From contig CANPZN010000005.1 of NCBI GenBank assembly GCA_947588785.1, forward strand, positions 1 to 47,407: a DNA stretch of 47,407 nucleotides, read 5' to 3'. The stretch is from Candidatus Gastranaerophilales bacterium (GTDB lineage: Bacteria > Cyanobacteriota > Vampirovibrionia > Gastranaerophilales > Gastranaerophilaceae). How positions within the stretch are numbered: position 1 is the stretch's first letter; each line of letters opens with the position of its first letter. Positions 3,250 to 36,008 of the stretch are shown here, piece by piece. The notes below the pieces were generated by a model. That model searched no databases. It was given only the letters and a program-made list of their open reading frames with translations, and had not been told where the DNA came from. Position numbers and translations under genes: made by a program.

Positions 3250-4477
3250 CGATTACGTACAATCATTAGAGACATATATAATGATTCAAATAAAAATGGA
3301 AGCTGCAAAATTAGCACCGGAATTAACAAAAAAAGGCAGAACTCCAATTTCGCTGGCAATGGGAGCTCCTGTTGAAAAACCGCCGAAATTAGTAACGGAA
3401 AAAATAATGGAATATGCAAATACAGATGGTATGCATACATATACTTTAGTTAAAGGTGAATCATATTTATTGGATTCAATAGCAAAAAATATGAAAAAAC
3501 GTACAGGAGTAGAATTCGATATTAATTCTGAAATTTGTGCATTAATAGGATCAAAAGAAGGTATTGCAAATTTAATCAGAGCGTTGATTAATCCGAAAAG
3601 TAATATGAAAGATAGAGATATAATATTAATTCCGGATCCCGGGTATGCTTCTTATAAAGAAATGGTTAAAGTATCAGGCGGAATGAGTTATGGAATTCCT
3701 TTACAACCTGAAAATAATTATATGCCGGATTTGGAAGAAGTTATGAACAATCTTGAAAAAGATGGCTTTGACAGAAAGAAAGTAAAGGCAGTAGTAATTA
3801 ATTATCCAAATAATCCGTTGGGAGCAATATGTACAAAAGACTATTTACAAAAAACGGTGGAATTTTGTAAAAAATATAAAATTCTCTTAATTTCAGATGC
3901 GGCATATATTGATCTTACATTTGAAGGTGCACCGAAAGCACATAGTGTATTTGAAATTGAAGGAGCAAAAGATGTTGCAGTGGAATTTTTCAGTTTTTCA
4001 AAACCATATTCAATGACGGGCTGGAGAATCGGATGGGTTTGCGGTAATAGAGATGCTGTCGGAATATTAGGAAAACTAAAATCTACAATTGATACGGGTA
4101 TATATAAACCGATTCAAAAAGCAGCAGCCGATATTTTAAATTCAAAAGAGGGTGATGAATATATTGTTGAAGCAAATCATAGATTTGAAAGAAAACAAAA
4201 AATAATAGTTGATGGTTTTAAAGAACTTGGTTGGCCAATGGATAAAATTAATCCTCCAAAAGCTACATTTTATTTGTGGCTTCCTGTTCCTCCGAAATAC
4301 AAAACTTCAAAAGAATTTACGGATGATGTGTTGAAAACATCTGGTATAGTTTTAGTACCTGGCAATGGATTCGGAAAAAATGGTGAAGGTTGGTTTAGAA
4401 TGTCAATTGTTGCCGCTGAAACACAAATGAAAGAAGTAATAAAACGATTAAAAGAAGACGGTTTCTATTTTGAATAA
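3233..4477 (+). CDS. PLP-dependent class I/II aminotransferase (possibly LL-diaminopimelate type)
   Basis: A fold-type I aminotransferase of 414 residues. The PLP lysine is in SFSKPYSMTGWRIGW (Lys near residue 257). The Asn-Pro segment INYPNNPLGA, the PDPGYASYKEM loop and the C-terminal Arg in EGWFRMSIV are all present. The start is supported by GGAG ahead of ATG 3233, inside the end of folE2. The genome makes diaminopimelate (dapA and asd are in this window), and the sequence resembles aminotransferases annotated as LL-diaminopimelate aminotransferase. However, its N-terminal SLAMGAPVEKPP segment differs from classical DapL, so the substrate is unproven. Aspartate or aromatic amino acid transamination is an alternative. 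Confidence 0.88.
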   Translation: MKELFNDYVQSLETYIMIQIKMEAAKLAPELTKKGRTPISLAMGAPVEKPPKLVTEKIMEYANTDGMHTYTLVKGESYLLDSIAKNMKKRTGVEFDINSEICALIGSKEGIANLIRALINPKSNMKDRDIILIPDPGYASYKEMVKVSGGMSYGIPLQPENNYMPDLEEVMNNLEKDGFDRKKVKAVVINYPNNPLGAICTKDYLQKTVEFCKKYKILLISDAAYIDLTFEGAPKAHSVFEIEGAKDVAVEFFSFSKPYSMTGWRIGWVCGNRDAVGILGKLKSTIDTGIYKPIQKAAADILNSKEGDEYIVEANHRFERKQKIIVDGFKELGWPMDKINPPKATFYLWLPVPPKYKTSKEFTDDVLKTSGIVLVPGNGFGKNGEGWFRMSIVAAETQMKEVIKRLKEDGFYFE

Positions 4478-5066
4478 AACAATAATTGTAGATTATGAAG
4501 CAGGAAATTTAAGAAGTGTAGCAAATATGCTGACATTTCTAAAAGTTGATTATGAAATTACTTCAGAAAAAGAAAAAATACTGAATGCAGAACGTATAAT
4601 ATTCCCCGGGCAAGGACATTTTGGACAGGCAATGAATAACCTTGAAAAAAAAGGGTTAATACCTATAATACAAGAATGTTGCAGAAAAAATATTCCGTTC
4701 TTGGGAATATGTATAGGGTTGCAAATTTTATTTGAAAGAAGTGAAGAAGCTCCCGGGATAAAAGGTCTTTCAATCTTTGAAGGTGAAGTAAGACGGTTTA
4801 GAACCGGGAAAATACCTCAGGTCGGGTGGAATAAGATAATACCTACGGGAATAGATAAAAATTTAAAAAATGAATATTTTTATTTTGTTAATTCGTATTA
4901 CGTTGAACCTAAAGATAGAGGTATAATAAGTACATATTGTGATTATAATATAAAATTTTGTTCATCAATCAAGAAAAATAATGTAACAGCAGTGCAATTT
5001 CATCCTGAGAAAAGCTCTCAGGTGGGACTTTCTTTTTTTAGAAATTGGTATGGCTTGAATAATTGA
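4470..5066 (+). CDS. hisH: Imidazole glycerol phosphate synthase, glutamine amidotransferase subunit
   Basis: HisH releases ammonia from glutamine and passes it to HisF, which makes imidazole glycerol phosphate and AICAR in histidine synthesis. The 198-residue product is a class I amidotransferase. The nucleophile Cys81 lies in FLGICIGLQILF, and the His178/Glu180 pair in QFHPEKS. HisH landmarks DYEAGNLRSV, FPGQGHFG, PQVGWN and YFVNSYYVEP are present. The start is TTG, overlapping the previous gene by eight bases. No hisF or other his gene is in the window; instead two radical SAM genes follow directly. A role in surface-sugar amidation, as in HisH homologues of some O-antigen clusters, cannot be excluded. 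Confidence 0.9.
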   Translation: MNKTIIVDYEAGNLRSVANMLTFLKVDYEITSEKEKILNAERIIFPGQGHFGQAMNNLEKKGLIPIIQECCRKNIPFLGICIGLQILFERSEEAPGIKGLSIFEGEVRRFRTGKIPQVGWNKIIPTGIDKNLKNEYFYFVNSYYVEPKDRGIISTYCDYNIKFCSSIKKNNVTAVQFHPEKSSQVGLSFFRNWYGLNN

Positions 5067-5075
5067 GAGGAATAT

Positions 5076-6113
5076 ATGTTAAAAGAAATAAAATCGTTAT
5101 TCATAAAAGAAAAAAAAAGTAATAAATATGTAAGCTGTGAATATGTGCAGCACGGATTTAATGTTGATTATGAAGATATAAAAATGTGCTGCTTTAATTG
5201 CCATGAAGGTGGCGGAAGGCAAATATTGATAGACAATTATCATGGAGAAATGATAAATTGGAATAAATTTTTTAAAGAAAAACGGAAAATGCGTGAATTA
5301 AATAAGAAAGGAATAATATTAGATCGTTGCAAAGGCTGTATTTTTTTGAAAGAAAGAGAGTGGGATGAGGAAGATTATATAAATTATATGGTATTTAATC
5401 ATTGGACTCAATGTAATTGTAAGTGTAAGTATTGTTTTACAAATGAGCAATCGGATTATTTTAATGCACGAAAGAATTACAATATGTATCCTGTTATAAA
5501 AAAGCTGGCGGATATGGGGAAAATAAGAGGCGGCGGAGAGATTGGATTTGGCGGCGGAGAACCTGCATTATTACCTGAATTTGAACCAATGGTCAATTTA
5601 CTTTTAGATTGCGGTTGTGATAATATAAGGGTTCATTCATCCGCTGTAAAATACTCCCTGGCAATAGAAAGAGGATTACGGGAAGGTAAACTTACACTTG
5701 TTGTATCGGTTGATTCCGGCAGAGCGGAAACTTATGAAAATATAAAAAGAGTAAATCATTTTAATAAAGTTTGGGAAAATATGGCAAAATATGCTCAAAG
5801 TCAAAGTGAGAATAAATATAAGGCCAAAACAAAATATATAATATATCCCGGATTTAATGATAATAAAGAAGAAATAGATAAATTTTTTGAATTAACAAAT
5901 CAATCCGGAGTAAAAAGTGTTGTTTTGGATATTGAAGGCGGATGGTATGAGCAAAATAAATATAAAGTTCCGGACTATATATATGAACTTTTAGATTATG
6001 CTTATGATAAGGCATTAAGCTATGATATGAAAAATATAGAATTATATGATAGGGCAAGCCATATGAAATCTCATAAAGAAGAATATATAAAGCTAAGAGA
6101 TAATGTCAAATAA
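5076..6113 (+). CDS. Radical SAM protein with Cys-rich N-terminal domain (paralogue 1)
   Basis: A 345-residue radical SAM enzyme of unknown substrate. The iron-sulfur motif CNCKCKYC (Cys113, Cys117, Cys120) is unusually far from the N-terminus. It is preceded by a domain with further ordered cysteines: Cys21, the pair Cys38-Cys39, Cys42-His43 followed by GGG, and Cys85-x-x-Cys88. These could hold an additional cluster or metal. After the SAM cluster comes the SAM-binding GFGGGEP segment, then a barrel with VVSVDSG and YPGFNDN. There is no SPASM-type C-terminal Cys domain. A good ribosome site (GAGAGG) precedes ATG 5076. It lies ten bases after hisH and overlaps the next, paralogous gene by 11 bases, so they are co-translated. 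Confidence 0.92.
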   Translation: MLKEIKSLFIKEKKSNKYVSCEYVQHGFNVDYEDIKMCCFNCHEGGGRQILIDNYHGEMINWNKFFKEKRKMRELNKKGIILDRCKGCIFLKEREWDEEDYINYMVFNHWTQCNCKCKYCFTNEQSDYFNARKNYNMYPVIKKLADMGKIRGGGEIGFGGGEPALLPEFEPMVNLLLDCGCDNIRVHSSAVKYSLAIERGLREGKLTLVVSVDSGRAETYENIKRVNHFNKVWENMAKYAQSQSENKYKAKTKYIIYPGFNDNKEEIDKFFELTNQSGVKSVVLDIEGGWYEQNKYKVPDYIYELLDYAYDKALSYDMKNIELYDRASHMKSHKEEYIKLRDNVK

Positions 6114-8379
6114 TTATACATCTTGTGATTGGCTCAGAAACGGAATAGATTTTGAGTTAGACCATATAGAAATATGTTGTTTCCGCTGCCATAGCGGGGG
6201 TGGTGAAATTAAACTTGCCAAAATAAAGAATGGTCAGATTGATATAAAAGAACTTATTGAAAATCGTGAAGTTTTAATAAATGAAAATAAAAATGGAAAA
6301 ATAAACAAACAATGTATTGGGTGTTTTAATTTAAAAAATGAAAAATGGCTTGATAAACCAAGTATAAAATATATTCATTTTAATCATTGGACGTATTGTA
6401 ATTCAAATTGCATTTATTGTTATACAAAAGCTGACGAAAAATATAAAAATGGAATTCAAAATTATAATGCTTTACCTATATTAAAAGAGATATTAAAATA
6501 TATAGATTTTTCTTCGGAAGGTGAAATTACCTTTGCAGGTGGAGAACCTGTAATGTTAAATGAATTTGAAGATATAATTAATTATCTTTTGGAAATAGGT
6601 GCAAAAAAAATTATTGTACATACCTCCAGTGTAAAATATTCAGAAGCATTAGAAAAAGCATTAGCTGAAAATAAGGCTCAAGTTGTAATTTCTCATGATT
6701 GTGGTTATGAAGATACATTTAAAAAAATAAAAAATACAGAAAAATATAATCAAGTATGGGAGAATACAAAAAGGTATGCAAGATATAAAAATGTATTTTC
6801 TAAATATGTAATAATACCGCAAGTGAATGATAATAAAAAAGAAATTGATTACTGGTTAAATCAGGTAGTTACCAATAATGTAAAATCTGTGATAGTTGAT
6901 ATTGAACATAATTATTATAATGAGGTTAAAAATAAACTAAAACTAACGGTAAATATAATAGAATTGTTAGAATATATAAAAAAGGAAGCAAAACGTTTAG
7001 GAATTAAAGTAAGTTACTATAATACAGCAATTTATTTGAATAAAAAATATAAATATTTAATTCCGTTTATAAAATATAAACACTATTTCATAGAATTGAT
7101 AATTCTCTCATTGCCTTTATTAATGGGAAATTTAGGGCAAACATTAATCGGTGCGACAGATATTCTTGTAGTAGCAAAATATAATATAAATTCATTGGCG
7201 GCAATAAGTATTGCGAATTCAATATTATTCACGATATTTATATTCGGTTTGGGGATTCTTGGAGCAATATCAATAATTTTATCAAATATGCGAGGATCAA
7301 AACAGAAAACTAAAAAGTATTTGATGCCAAGTTTAATATTTTCATTATTGCTTGCAGTTATATTTACAATAGTTTGTTATTATTCAAAATATCTGGTAGA
7401 TTTAATGGGATTTGAAAAAATGTTAATCCCATATATAAAAGAATATATAACAATAGTATCGTTTTCAATGTTTGGCATGTTTTTATTTCAGGGAATAAAG
7501 GAATTTTTATTAGCATATGAAATAGTAAAATTTCCTAATTTATTATTATTAGCTGCAGTATTAATCAATTTATTGTTTGATGTCATGTTTGTATATGGTT
7601 GCGGAATAATACCCCCAATGGGGTCAAAAGGAGCAGCAATAGCCACGTTATCAGTAAGAACAATAATGGGGCTAATATTATTATTATATGTATTTAAATT
7701 AATCAAATTCAAGGATATGATAGATTTCAAATATATGAAACAATTGATAAAAATAGGAGTTCCTATAGGATTTGCATTATTGTTTGAATTTTTGGCATTT
7801 AACATAATAACCGTGCTGGTAGGAAGAGAAGCAGGGATATTATCGGCAACACATAATATAATAATAACAATATCTTCAGCAACATTTATGGTGCCATTAG
7901 CAATAGCAACAGCGGTTGCAATCAAGGTATCGTATTATTACGGAGCAAGAAATTCTTTGGAAATTAAAAGATATTCATATGCATCATTAATAATGGGAGT
8001 AGGATTTATGGCAGTTGCCGGCATAATATTAGCATTATTTCCGAAAGAAATAATAAGCATATTTACAAATAATGAGGAAGTTTTAAAAATAGCAATGCCG
8101 CTTGTAATAATTGCAGCAATGTATCAAATATTTGACGGATTTCAAGTTGTTGCCGGCGGAATATTAAGAGGATTTAAAATGACCAAAATAGTATCAACAT
8201 GTGTATTAACAGGGTATTGGCTGGTTGGTGCTCCATTAGCATATATATTGGTAAATAAATATAATTGTTCATTAAAAGGATACTGGATAGCACTTGCAGT
8301 ATCACTGTTTTCAATGGGAATCGGTCAGGCTGTTATCGCAAAATGGAAATATAATAAAATAAAAAAAATATATCAATAA
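6103..8379 (+). CDS. Radical SAM - MATE transporter fusion protein
   Basis: One uninterrupted 758-residue reading frame joining an enzyme and an exporter. Residues 1 to about 310 are a radical SAM domain paralogous to the preceding gene: Cys8, Cys25-Cys26, Cys29-His30-x-GGG, Cys71-x-x-Cys74, the cluster Cys99/Cys103/Cys106 (CNSNCIYC) and FAGGEP. From about residue 325 a full MATE-family transporter follows, opening with ELIILSLPLLMGNLGQTLIG. It has about twelve hydrophobic segments in two halves, the second half holding TISSATFMVPLAIATAVAIK. The junction falls where the free-standing paralogues end, so both parts look complete. MATE proteins export organic cations, drugs or lipid-linked sugars using H+ or Na+ gradients. 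The idea that the enzyme part makes the transported substrate is an inference. Confidence 0.9.
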   Translation: MSNNYTSCDWLRNGIDFELDHIEICCFRCHSGGGEIKLAKIKNGQIDIKELIENREVLINENKNGKINKQCIGCFNLKNEKWLDKPSIKYIHFNHWTYCNSNCIYCYTKADEKYKNGIQNYNALPILKEILKYIDFSSEGEITFAGGEPVMLNEFEDIINYLLEIGAKKIIVHTSSVKYSEALEKALAENKAQVVISHDCGYEDTFKKIKNTEKYNQVWENTKRYARYKNVFSKYVIIPQVNDNKKEIDYWLNQVVTNNVKSVIVDIEHNYYNEVKNKLKLTVNIIELLEYIKKEAKRLGIKVSYYNTAIYLNKKYKYLIPFIKYKHYFIELIILSLPLLMGNLGQTLIGATDILVVAKYNINSLAAISIANSILFTIFIFGLGILGAISIILSNMRGSKQKTKKYLMPSLIFSLLLAVIFTIVCYYSKYLVDLMGFEKMLIPYIKEYITIVSFSMFGMFLFQGIKEFLLAYEIVKFPNLLLLAAVLINLLFDVMFVYGCGIIPPMGSKGAAIATLSVRTIMGLILLLYVFKLIKFKDMIDFKYMKQLIKIGVPIGFALLFEFLAFNIITVLVGREAGILSATHNIIITISSATFMVPLAIATAVAIKVSYYYGARNSLEIKRYSYASLIMGVGFMAVAGIILALFPKEIISIFTNNEEVLKIAMPLVIIAAMYQIFDGFQVVAGGILRGFKMTKIVSTCVLTGYWLVGAPLAYILVNKYNCSLKGYWIALAVSLFSMGIGQAVIAKWKYNKIKKIYQ

Positions 8380-8519: not shown

Positions 8520-9245
8520 ATGGAAGAAAAATTAAAATATAAAAGAATATTATTAAAATTGTCCGGAGAGGCACTATTAGGGAAACAAGAATTCGGTATA
8601 GACCAGATACCGTTAGAAATGATAGCAAATGAAATAAAAGAAGCATATAATGCCAGAGCTGAAATAGCAATAGTTGTAGGTGGCGGAAATATATTCAGAG
8701 GAGTAAAAAATTCTGCGAAATACGGAATGGATCAAGCTACAGGGGATTATATAGGAATGCTAGCGACAGTGATGAATGCAATAGCCCTACAAAGTGCCTT
8801 AAGAAAAATAAATGTACCATGCAGAGTCCAATCCGCAATTGATATGAATAAAATAGCCGAACCATATATTAGATTTAAAGCGATAAGACATTTGGAAAAA
8901 TCAAGAGTAGTAATATTTGCCGCAGGAACAGGAAATCCGTTTTTTACAACAGATACAGCGGCAGCATTACGAGCTTCTGAAATAGGAGCAGAAGCAATGC
9001 TAATGGCAAAAAATGGTGTAGATGGAGTTTATTCTGATGATCCCAGAATAAATCCGAATTCTAAAAAATATGAATCAATAACTTATGATGATATAATTGT
9101 AAAAGGTTTGAAAGTAATGGATACAGCATCGTGTGCATTATGTAAACAAAATTCCATACCCATAGTGGTATTTGATTTTGCTGCAAAAGGAAGCATTATA
9201 AAAATATTAAAAGGTGAAAATATAGGAACATATGTAGGAGGTTAA
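8520..9245 (+). CDS. pyrH: UMP kinase
   Basis: Phosphorylates UMP to UDP, feeding UTP/CTP and RNA synthesis. The 241-residue product belongs to the amino acid kinase fold used by bacterial PyrH. It shows LKLSGEALLG at residues 13-22, VVGGGNIFRG near 55-64, the GDYIGMLATVMNA segment and GTGNPFFTTDTAA. It heads a conserved block with frr (one base downstream, after a strong AGGAGG that sits inside the pyrH end) and cdsA. The ribosome site of pyrH itself is weak (ATAGG). Confidence 0.96.
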   Translation: MEEKLKYKRILLKLSGEALLGKQEFGIDQIPLEMIANEIKEAYNARAEIAIVVGGGNIFRGVKNSAKYGMDQATGDYIGMLATVMNAIALQSALRKINVPCRVQSAIDMNKIAEPYIRFKAIRHLEKSRVVIFAAGTGNPFFTTDTAAALRASEIGAEAMLMAKNGVDGVYSDDPRINPNSKKYESITYDDIIVKGLKVMDTASCALCKQNSIPIVVFDFAAKGSIIKILKGENIGTYVGG

Positions 9246-33049: not shown

Positions 33050-34045
33050 ATGGCTAAAATTAAAAAAATAAGTTTCGCTGATATTTTAAATGTTAAAAAA
33101 TTAATTTCTATTGTTTGTAATGATAAAGTTATGACTTATAGACGTTTATTTTGGCTTTCTGTTCCTGTTACTTTCTTGCAAAATCTTGTTTATAATGTGC
33201 ATTTTAGAAAATTACCTGAAAGTTATGTCGTTTATAATAATGAAAACTTTTTAAAAGGTATTATTACTGTCAAATCTCAGTTCGGTAACCCCTTTAAATG
33301 GCAGATAAAAAGACTCTTTCTTGATAAAAATGCTTATGAAGAAGGTAAACAACTTCTTGAATATATCATTGCAAAATTCGGTGCCAGAGGTGTTGATACT
33401 TTTTATATTTCTATCGATGATAATCAACAGGATTTAATTGACCTCTTTATTAAAGGTTGTGGCTTTAGATTATGTGCTTCTGAAGAATTATGGTATGTTT
33501 CTAACTTAAATTTCCTTGATAATCAATTCGATTTTACTGATTTTAAAAAATTTAAAAATTCTGATTCTGCTTTATGTTCTGCTTTATATAATGAGAATTT
33601 AATTACTCATTATAAATATTCTCTCTCAAAAGAAAAAGATGAATTTAAAGACAAATTCCTTCAAGGATTTAATTCTTATTCTGATTTTAAATACTTGCTT
33701 GAAAATAAACAAAATAAACAAATTAAAGCTTTTATTGAAATACGTACTTTGGATAATAAAAATTATTTTCTTGATGTTATTATTCCTCCTGCCTTTTTTG
33801 ATTTGTATCCTTCTATTTTGTCTTTTTCAGTTAAAGAAATTGTTAAAAGAAATAAAAAATTTAAGTTATATATTAAAAATAGAAAATATCTCCAAGCCGG
33901 AGATCTAATGACTAATTATTTTAAAGAAAATAAATTTGAACTCTTACAAAATAATGCTATTTTAGTTAAAGATTTCTTTAAAACTATTAAAAATGATTCC
34001 AGAAGTTTTAATGATGTAATAATTTTTAGTGGCTTTGAAGTTTAA
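33050..34045 (+). CDS. GNAT-like protein of unknown function
   Basis: A 331-residue protein that I cannot name. Residues about 55-150 have the strand-helix pattern of an acyltransferase (GNAT) fold: ESYVVYNNENFLKGIITVKS, a strand-turn IKRLFLDKNAYEEGKQLLEYII, then DTFYISIDDNQQDLIDLFIKGCGF. The usual acetyl-CoA loop (Q/R-x-x-G-x-G/A) is not obvious; GARG is the closest. A similar second half (residues 180-310) may be a duplicated, diverged domain. It contains no signal peptide. Codons end mainly in T, as in other plus-strand genes in this part. It converges with and overlaps the radical SAM gene by four bases. Confidence 0.75.
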   Translation: MAKIKKISFADILNVKKLISIVCNDKVMTYRRLFWLSVPVTFLQNLVYNVHFRKLPESYVVYNNENFLKGIITVKSQFGNPFKWQIKRLFLDKNAYEEGKQLLEYIIAKFGARGVDTFYISIDDNQQDLIDLFIKGCGFRLCASEELWYVSNLNFLDNQFDFTDFKKFKNSDSALCSALYNENLITHYKYSLSKEKDEFKDKFLQGFNSYSDFKYLLENKQNKQIKAFIEIRTLDNKNYFLDVIIPPAFFDLYPSILSFSVKEIVKRNKKFKLYIKNRKYLQAGDLMTNYFKENKFELLQNNAILVKDFFKTIKNDSRSFNDVIIFSGFEV

Positions 34046-35028
34046 TTTTCTATTAAATATTTTGCTCTGTCACATATTTCCAGTCTGAAAAAGTTCATTT
34101 CTTTTGCTTTTCTTTGTACGTATTTTATTAAGTCTAATATTCTTTCATCAGGTTTTGAATTTCTGTATCTTGTCAACCAGCTGTTTTCGATATCAATTAC
34201 AATTATTTCTATCCTGTTTTCTTTATTAAATTTTAACCAATTGTCAATTTCTTCTTCCGTATCATTAATTCCAGGTATAATTATATATTTACTTATTACA
34301 TTATAAGATAATTTTTGAGCTTTTGCATACTTCTTTAAATTATTTGAAACTGTTTTGTATTTATCTATTTGTTTTATTTCTTTATATATTTCTCTTGAAG
34401 AACTATCTATTGAAATTACTACTGTTACTTGTGATGTAGAAATACCTTTTGCTATTATAGGTGAATATTTTATGCCGGAAGATGGTATTCTTATATCAGA
34501 AAATCCTTCCTTTATAAACAATGATAACAGTTTTTCAAATTCCGGAAGAATGGTTGGTTCTCCGCCTCCAAATCCTATTGCTCCATTTGGTCTTATTATG
34601 TTCTTTTTGAACATTTCTTTTACTATAGGATATATGTTATAAGTTTTAAGTTTATTATAACCTTTTTTATCTTCTTCTGTGTAACAATATGAACAGTTAC
34701 AATTACATCTTGTAAAGTGGTCAAAGACAATTGAATCAATATAGTTTTCCTGAGGCCAGTATCTCTCTTCTAAAAACACACACCCACGGCATCCTGGAAT
34801 TGTATCACCTCTTTTTTGTATATTTCTGTATTCTTCTTTTATTCTAAAAAAATCATCCCAATCTATTTTTTCACCGTGATAATTCTCATATATCATTGAA
34901 TTACCACCACCTGGTGCACTCATGTAACAACATAATTTTATATTAGAACCATAAACTCCATTATCAAAACATACCCCGGATTCTATCCATTTGCAACTTA
35001 TATATTTTTCAAATTTTATTTTTCCCAT
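34042..35028 (-). CDS. Radical SAM protein with Cys-rich N-terminal domain (paralogue 3)
   Basis: A 328-residue paralogue of the two enzymes at 5.1 and 6.1 kb. It keeps the same order: Cys12, the pair Cys33-Cys34 followed by GGG (residues 40-42), Cys80-x-x-Cys83, then the cluster motif CNCNCSYC (Cys108, Cys112, Cys115) and GFGGGEP. It lacks the Cys-His after the Cys pair that the others share (YMSAPGGG instead of FNCHEGGG). There is no SPASM domain and no transporter fused. The gene lies five bases after a different, SPASM-like radical SAM gene and is surely co-transcribed with it. The substrate is unknown. Confidence 0.92.
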   Translation of the reverse strand: MGKIKFEKYISCKWIESGVCFDNGVYGSNIKLCCYMSAPGGGNSMIYENYHGEKIDWDDFFRIKEEYRNIQKRGDTIPGCRGCVFLEERYWPQENYIDSIVFDHFTRCNCNCSYCYTEEDKKGYNKLKTYNIYPIVKEMFKKNIIRPNGAIGFGGGEPTILPEFEKLLSLFIKEGFSDIRIPSSGIKYSPIIAKGISTSQVTVVISIDSSSREIYKEIKQIDKYKTVSNNLKKYAKAQKLSYNVISKYIIIPGINDTEEEIDNWLKFNKENRIEIIVIDIENSWLTRYRNSKPDERILDLIKYVQRKAKEMNFFRLEICDRAKYLIEN

Positions 35029-35033
35029 AATTC

Positions 35034-36008
35034 CTACTTAAAATTACAGTTTAATAATCGACAATTCATATTACAGTTTATTATTTTTTCTCTTATTTCA
35101 TCAGCCTTTTTACTGTACCATAAATCTTGCGGCAAGCTGTCTTTTAAATTACCTATTGGTTCCATACAAAAACATATTCTACAATTTCCGTAGGGATCTA
35201 TTGCAAAATTATTTTCACCTACCATACATTGAATATTTTGGATTTTCTCAGGTGTATCTATTAAAATTTTAAATGCTTCAAGCTGGCTGAATCCATTACA
35301 AATAGGAAATCCTTGTTTCTTTAATTCTATCATTTCATCTATTGCGTTTAATGCTGCTGTTTTTATGTCTTGTCCATAAATTTGTTTTTTTTCATCTACA
35401 GCTGTGGAAAATGCATCTCCATTGTCCATTAATTGATAACTTACTCCTATTCCTTCTATTTTACAAAATTCTGCAATAGGTCTTATTTCAGTTAAATTTT
35501 CAGGCATTACTACGGTTGACAGAAATATATTTTTCCATTTATGTCCAATTGTGTGTTTATTTCTGTAATTTAATGTTTGTATGGAATCCATTGTTCGTTG
35601 AAATGCATCTTCTCTTCCTCTTGATTTGTTATGTATTTGAGGATCTTTTACCGCATTTAATGAAAATGTTATGTTTGTAAATGCTGAATATAATACTTCA
35701 TTAATTTTTTCAGGTATAGCAAGTCCGTTTGTTACTACATTTACGGTATCTCCAAGATTGCTCGCAAATTCGGATATCTCAAAAATGTCATTTCTAATAA
35801 ACGGTTCTCCACCTGATATTATAAATTGATAATTGCCAAGCCAATTATGCATGTTCGTTAGTACATTTTTCCATTCTTCTAACGTCATTTCTTTTGCTTG
35901 TACTTCACCCGGTGTTTTCCATCCATTACAGGTTATACACCTTGACTGACATCTTTCTGTATTATTGAAAGAAAATGAAATGGGTTTTTTGTCTGAATCT
36001 ATTGTCAT
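35034..36008 (-). CDS. Radical SAM protein with SPASM-like C-terminal Cys region
   Basis: A 324-residue radical SAM protein of another type from the three paralogues. The cluster motif CQSRCITC (Cys20, Cys24, Cys27) is close to the N-terminus, FIISGGEPFIR follows near residue 62-72, and a late strand has SYQLMDNGD. The C-terminus carries seven or more cysteines (QCMVGENNFAIDPYGNCRIC, FC, NCNMNCRLLNC), as in SPASM or twitch domains that hold auxiliary iron-sulfur clusters in peptide- and sugar-modifying enzymes. It starts one base after the end of the repaired diguanylate-cyclase-like frame, and paralogue 3 follows after five bases. No precursor peptide is visible nearby. Confidence 0.9.
   Translation of the reverse strand: MTIDSDKKPISFSFNNTERCQSRCITCNGWKTPGEVQAKEMTLEEWKNVLTNMHNWLGNYQFIISGGEPFIRNDIFEISEFASNLGDTVNVVTNGLAIPEKINEVLYSAFTNITFSLNAVKDPQIHNKSRGREDAFQRTMDSIQTLNYRNKHTIGHKWKNIFLSTVVMPENLTEIRPIAEFCKIEGIGVSYQLMDNGDAFSTAVDEKKQIYGQDIKTAALNAIDEMIELKKQGFPICNGFSQLEAFKILIDTPEKIQNIQCMVGENNFAIDPYGNCRICFCMEPIGNLKDSLPQDLWYSKKADEIREKIINCNMNCRLLNCNFK

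Follow-up and report, generated by a model that had tools for sequence, protein, structure and literature searches.

A radical SAM enzyme joined in frame to a MATE exporter in one genus of gut Gastranaerophilales

Introduction

Exporters of the NorM/MATE family (TIGR00797, PF01554) are cation-coupled multidrug exporters, and the NorM-type members are often broad drug pumps. The nearest known arrangement to the one described here occurs in streptococci: their tryglysin (wgk) RaS-RiPP cluster encodes a radical SAM enzyme together with a transporter, each as a protein of its own (PMC8092268). The protein WgkD of this cluster is named a MATE transporter in the NCBIfam model NF052396. The cluster also has a precursor peptide and an RRE protein, whereas neither was found at the locus considered in this study. 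A second point of comparison is provided by the SPASM radical SAM enzymes, which combine the radical SAM core with an extra Cys-rich domain. Finally, fusions of an enzyme with a transporter of the Rosetta-stone kind are known, wherein genes that are neighbours in relatives have been joined in one lineage.

We analysed a stretch of 47,407 nt from a Candidatus Gastranaerophilales genome assembly (the window), in which a reading made from the sequence alone had proposed that a complete radical SAM enzyme and a complete MATE exporter share one polypeptide, a pairing for which it knew of no precedent. No radical SAM-MATE fusion was described in the literature that we searched. Taken singly, each domain is an ordinary representative of its family; what is new is that they are joined.

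Results

Architecture of the fusion gene

The open reading frame at positions 6103-8379 runs uninterrupted from ATG to TAA, and its product consists of an intact radical SAM part (residues 1-318) with an intact 12-helix MATE protein of the NorM type joined behind it. The genes and domains relevant to this analysis are as follows.

4470 to 5066, plus strand: hisH, upstream anchor of the syntenic locus (profile match; synteny)
5076 to 6113, plus strand: rSAM1, free-standing paralogue from the same radical SAM family as the fusion; its last 11 nt overlap the fusion gene
6103 to 8379, plus strand: radical SAM-MATE fusion gene, 758 amino acids (single open reading frame; Pfam/NCBIfam matches; same fusion in seven further species)
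6103 to 6372, plus strand: N-terminal Cys domain of the fusion, residues 1-90, with C8, C25, C71 and C74; putative auxiliary Fe-S site (Cys conservation)
6382 to 6837, plus strand: radical SAM core of the fusion, residues 94-245, with CxxxCxxC at 99/103/106 and GGE at 146-148 (PF04055; radical SAM fold of the paralogue model)
7024 to 7086, plus strand: seam between the halves, residues 308-328, where the last radical SAM helix runs into MATE TM1
7087 to 8376, plus strand: NorM-type MATE exporter half, residues 329-758 (Pfam MatE; TIGR00797; NorM-VC alignment)
8520 to 9245, plus strand: pyrH, downstream anchor of the syntenic locus (profile match; synteny)
34042 to 35028, minus strand: another member of the radical SAM family of the fusion (family search)

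The main elements of the sequence-only reading are borne out by these data, including the single 758-codon frame with the cluster Cys residues 99/103/106, the 12-helix transporter, and the stand-alone paralogue alongside. Residues 94-245 match the Pfam Radical_SAM model PF04055 with an E value of 2e-15 (57.6 bits, cut-off 29.5). The CxxxCxxC motif and a model score above cut-off are both present, and the fused domain may be expected to bind a [4Fe-4S] cluster and cleave SAM. The four N-terminal cysteines and the three core cysteines are present in 33 of 33 members of this radical SAM family in the genome, and the invariance of the former suggests that the N-terminal domain is a probable auxiliary Fe-S cluster site. 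This recalls the Cys-rich extension of SPASM enzymes, but the N-terminal domain of the fusion family is not matched by PF13186 (SPASM), which at E 0.001 gave no match in either the fusion or rSAM1. The model for prokaryotic viperins (NF038283) scored 49.1 bits, below its cut-off of 180.

The second half matches Pfam MatE above cut-off (E 5e-49) and, over residues 338-728, TIGR00797 (matE) with 237.7 bits (cut-off 147.4), and we counted 12 hydrophobic segments in it. Its nearest solved structure by sequence is NorM (E 5e-49), and with NorM-VC it shares 28% identity and a fold match. D353, E562 and D678 align with D36, E255 and D371 of NorM-VC, the acidic residues of its cation site. The MATE half is predicted to be an ion-coupled exporter of the NorM type, and it differs from the known NorM/MATE exporters in the radical SAM enzyme that precedes it in the same chain.

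Structure models

The fusion was modelled with AlphaFold from 17 sequences. The mean pLDDT was 72, and at a pTM of 0.52 the placement of the two halves relative to each other is unreliable. The model predicts a partial barrel followed by helices at residues 308-315 and 317-360, the second of which would continue into TM1. Because the N-terminus of known MATE pumps is cytosolic, the radical SAM half is expected on the cytosolic side of the membrane, which is also where SAM and reductant occur.

The model of the 38% identical paralogue rSAM1 (pLDDT 82) has the radical SAM barrel fold (Foldseek, VIA). Its best fold matches are SkfB, SuiB, PFL activase (PFL-AE) and BlsE, with similar Z scores of 13-14; these matches name no substrate. 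If the radical SAM proteins were maturases of a ribosomally made peptide, the cargo of the pump would be that peptide after modification, as happens for tryglysin. Two of the closest folds, SkfB and SuiB, favour such a role, as does a match of the MATE half to the WgkD model; that match is weak, however, reaching 84.3 bits where the cut-off of NF052396 is 510, and the maturase folds match no better than PFL activase and little better than BlsE. Moreover, the locus holds no gene for a carrier or precursor peptide, and the interval from hisH through rSAM1 and the fusion to pyrH has neither a free open reading frame nor the space for a precursor gene. We consider peptide maturation very improbable on these grounds. 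No substrate gene was found at the fusion locus either.

The fusion is a selected gene

The same fusion occurs in eight of 41 genomes of the genus, a member of the gut Gastranaerophilales, and the other copies are 57-72% identical to that of the window. Where the contigs are named, they come from Candidatus Gastranaerophilales metagenome-assembled genomes and one metagenome-assembled genome from goat colon. The order rSAM1-fusion-pyrH-frr and a gap-free alignment of the linker at the seam are found in all eight species, and none of the eight has a stop or a shared start codon there. Internal re-initiation at the seam was rejected, as the fusions share no start codon there and M341 falls within TM1. 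Between species pairs, where it could be calculated, the radical SAM half has a dN/dS (NG86) of approximately 0.15-0.24 and the MATE half one of 0.05-0.11; both halves are under purifying selection. Recurrence in eight species, the gap-free linker, the lack of a stop or common start, and the low dN/dS together identify a selected gene rather than an assembly error. The genome of the window is fragmented (153 contigs), which might have raised the suspicion that assembly or binning had joined two genes, but the identical seam in the assemblies of eight species refutes such an artefact with near certainty.

Restriction to one genus and relatives with separate genes

Among 383 genomes from 52 genera of the order, none of the 51 other genera carries the fusion, and a phylum sample of 386 genomes contains no example beyond this genus. 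A pattern scan of genome contigs likewise returned only the genus-level set. Long open frames at other MATE genes (G166, G163 and G140) turned out not to be fusions, and a widespread distribution was rejected, with no instance in another genus of the order or in the phylum sample. The fusion is therefore restricted to this genus of gut Gastranaerophilales.

At the same kind of place, 25 sister species of the genus have rSAM1 followed directly by a separate MATE gene, whose product is approximately 60-73% identical to the fused MATE half. In total, rSAM1 adjoins a MATE or fusion gene in 33 genomes of the genus, and in one further genome the pair is split by a contig end. The sequence-only reading had held that relatives with two normally separate genes would speak against the fusion; separate genes are indeed the state in most relatives and appear to reflect the ancestry, but they do not detract from the reality of the fusion. 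Four other species of the genus keep the MATE gene without rSAM1, and these have few radical SAM genes (0-1 SPASM genes).

A second genus (g19) has the order rSAM1-rSAMa-rSAMb-MATE in five species, at chromosomal places other than that of the fusion locus. The neighbours of this cluster vary by species, with rpsG in G386 and CHAP-type proteins in G384. In one case (L132:1685-5575) two proteins of approximately 600 amino acids are encoded directly upstream of the cluster, the second with a C-terminal CHAP domain. An alpha/beta hydrolase with an N-terminal membrane segment (L132:10061-10906, L134:5604-6419, L089:6055-6867 and L135:2760-3611) follows the MATE gene in two genera (g33 and g19) and rSAM1 in a third (g13). 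As it is unlinked elsewhere, it was rejected as a constant partner.

MATE matches are found in 58 of 60 genomes of the family, mostly without a radical SAM neighbour, and in several genera such MATE genes adjoin housekeeping genes such as ndk and tgt. Since most relatives have the pump without the enzyme, the fusion might serve for tethering alone: it could hold the radical SAM protein to the membrane or ensure that both halves are expressed 1:1, with the MATE half continuing in its old role of general efflux of some unrelated substrate. Retention of the MATE gene in the four species that lack rSAM1 fits such a reading and points to an older pump role independent of radical SAM enzymes, and the nearest solved structure is that of a drug pump. 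An unrelated pair, however, would not need the adjacency of radical SAM and MATE genes that is kept in the second genus amid varied neighbours. We view tethering alone as a possible but doubtful account.

Origin of the fusion

In the radical SAM tree, the fused domain, rSAMb of g19 and an rSAMb of the fusion-bearing genus itself (contig C36) form one clade (100/98), and thus the fused enzyme belongs to subfamily b, as does rSAMb of g19. The fused domains and the C36 protein are nearest kin (95/89), and the alternative grouping of the fused domains with rSAMb of g19 is not rejected (p 0.07). The C36 gene belongs to a trio a-b-c of radical SAM genes followed by a D-isomer 2-hydroxyacid dehydrogenase, VanH-like in look (L065:14172-18117); the trio is kept in the genus, and the dehydrogenase is present in most relatives inspected.

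A tree of MATE, rSAM1, pyrH and frr places the fusion species in two positions, but the AU test does not reject a single clade for them (p 0.136). Two separate fusion events were set aside for this reason and because the radical SAM halves form one clade. The simplest, and most likely, history is that the fusion arose once by the joining of neighbouring rSAMb and MATE genes, a route like that of other enzyme-transporter fusions. The corresponding last two reading frames of the g19 cluster already overlap or nearly do so. Loss of a stop between overlapping genes could also have given a near-neutral fusion, tolerated with no new function, and its limitation to eight species would suit this, as would the overlap or near-overlap of the separate radical SAM and MATE frames in relatives. 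Against it stand the gap-free linker and purifying selection maintained over species whose copies are only 57-72% identical, along with the long stem (0.77) that the fused radical SAM clade has of its own and that suggests a changed role. We judge a near-neutral fusion unlikely.

The radical SAM family and its glycan context

The 2.1-Mb genome encodes approximately 33 members of the radical SAM family of the fusion, each with the N-terminal four-Cys domain, and 18 SPASM hits. Many family members cluster with glycosyltransferases (GT2), DegT aminotransferase, GDP-mannose dehydratase and SPASM-first radical SAM proteins; examples are L067 and L069 of genome G000 and L156 and L157 of a relative. 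Within the window, two adjoining radical SAM genes are located at 34042-36008 (minus strand), one belonging to the family of the fusion and the other encoding a C-terminal SPASM domain. A GT2 glycosyltransferase gene lies directly upstream of rSAM1 in three of the eight fusion species. One fusion species has a gene for a protein with an ADP-ribosyltransferase exoenzyme domain (L030:4468-5601, minus strand) between hisH and rSAM1. Taken together, the clustering of the family with glycan genes, the GT2 genes near rSAM1, and the scarcity of SPASM genes in species without rSAM1 point to an envelope- or glycan-related role for the enzymes.

Discussion

We propose, with a probability of roughly one half, that a small metabolite undergoes tailoring by rSAM1 and the fused enzyme and then leaves the cell through the fused pump. 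A subfamily b radical SAM enzyme has been joined in frame to a NorM-type MATE exporter, most likely the one that adjoined it. The enzyme should then lie in the cytosol, attached directly to TM1 of the pump, which cations would drive. The fusion and rSAM1, presumably made together from their overlapping genes, would each modify by radical chemistry a small metabolite connected with the envelope or with glycans, and the pump would export what results. The architecture, the intact motifs, the conservation, the synteny and the place in the b clade are observed, whereas cofactor binding, the membrane side, the substrate and the coupling of catalysis to export are what we infer.

The best evidence for a functional link is that radical SAM and MATE genes are kept together in a second genus, and the best evidence against a dedicated link is that the pump is common without a radical SAM partner. 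The empty locus, with no gene for a substrate, carrier or precursor, and the broad drug range of many NorM-type pumps also weigh against the proposal. The suggestion in the sequence-only reading that a radical SAM product is exported directly by the pump is supported in part: the genuine single polypeptide with two intact halves, its overlap with a stand-alone paralogue and the company that the two genes keep in the second genus favour it, while most MATE genes stand free of radical SAM neighbours. A more specific and tentative version is a bifunctional synthase-exporter, in which the cytosolic radical SAM half might hand its product directly to the pump, so that one polypeptide, with rSAM1, would make and secrete a new metabolite.

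We found nothing on the expansion of radical SAM enzymes in Gastranaerophilales in the literature searched. A fusion that is stably kept provides good genetic evidence of a link between its two activities. The present one connects a single exporter with an orphan radical SAM family that has expanded greatly in uncultured gut bacteria. The exported product of a single gene would therefore offer a concrete handle on the role of these approximately 33 enzymes per genome.
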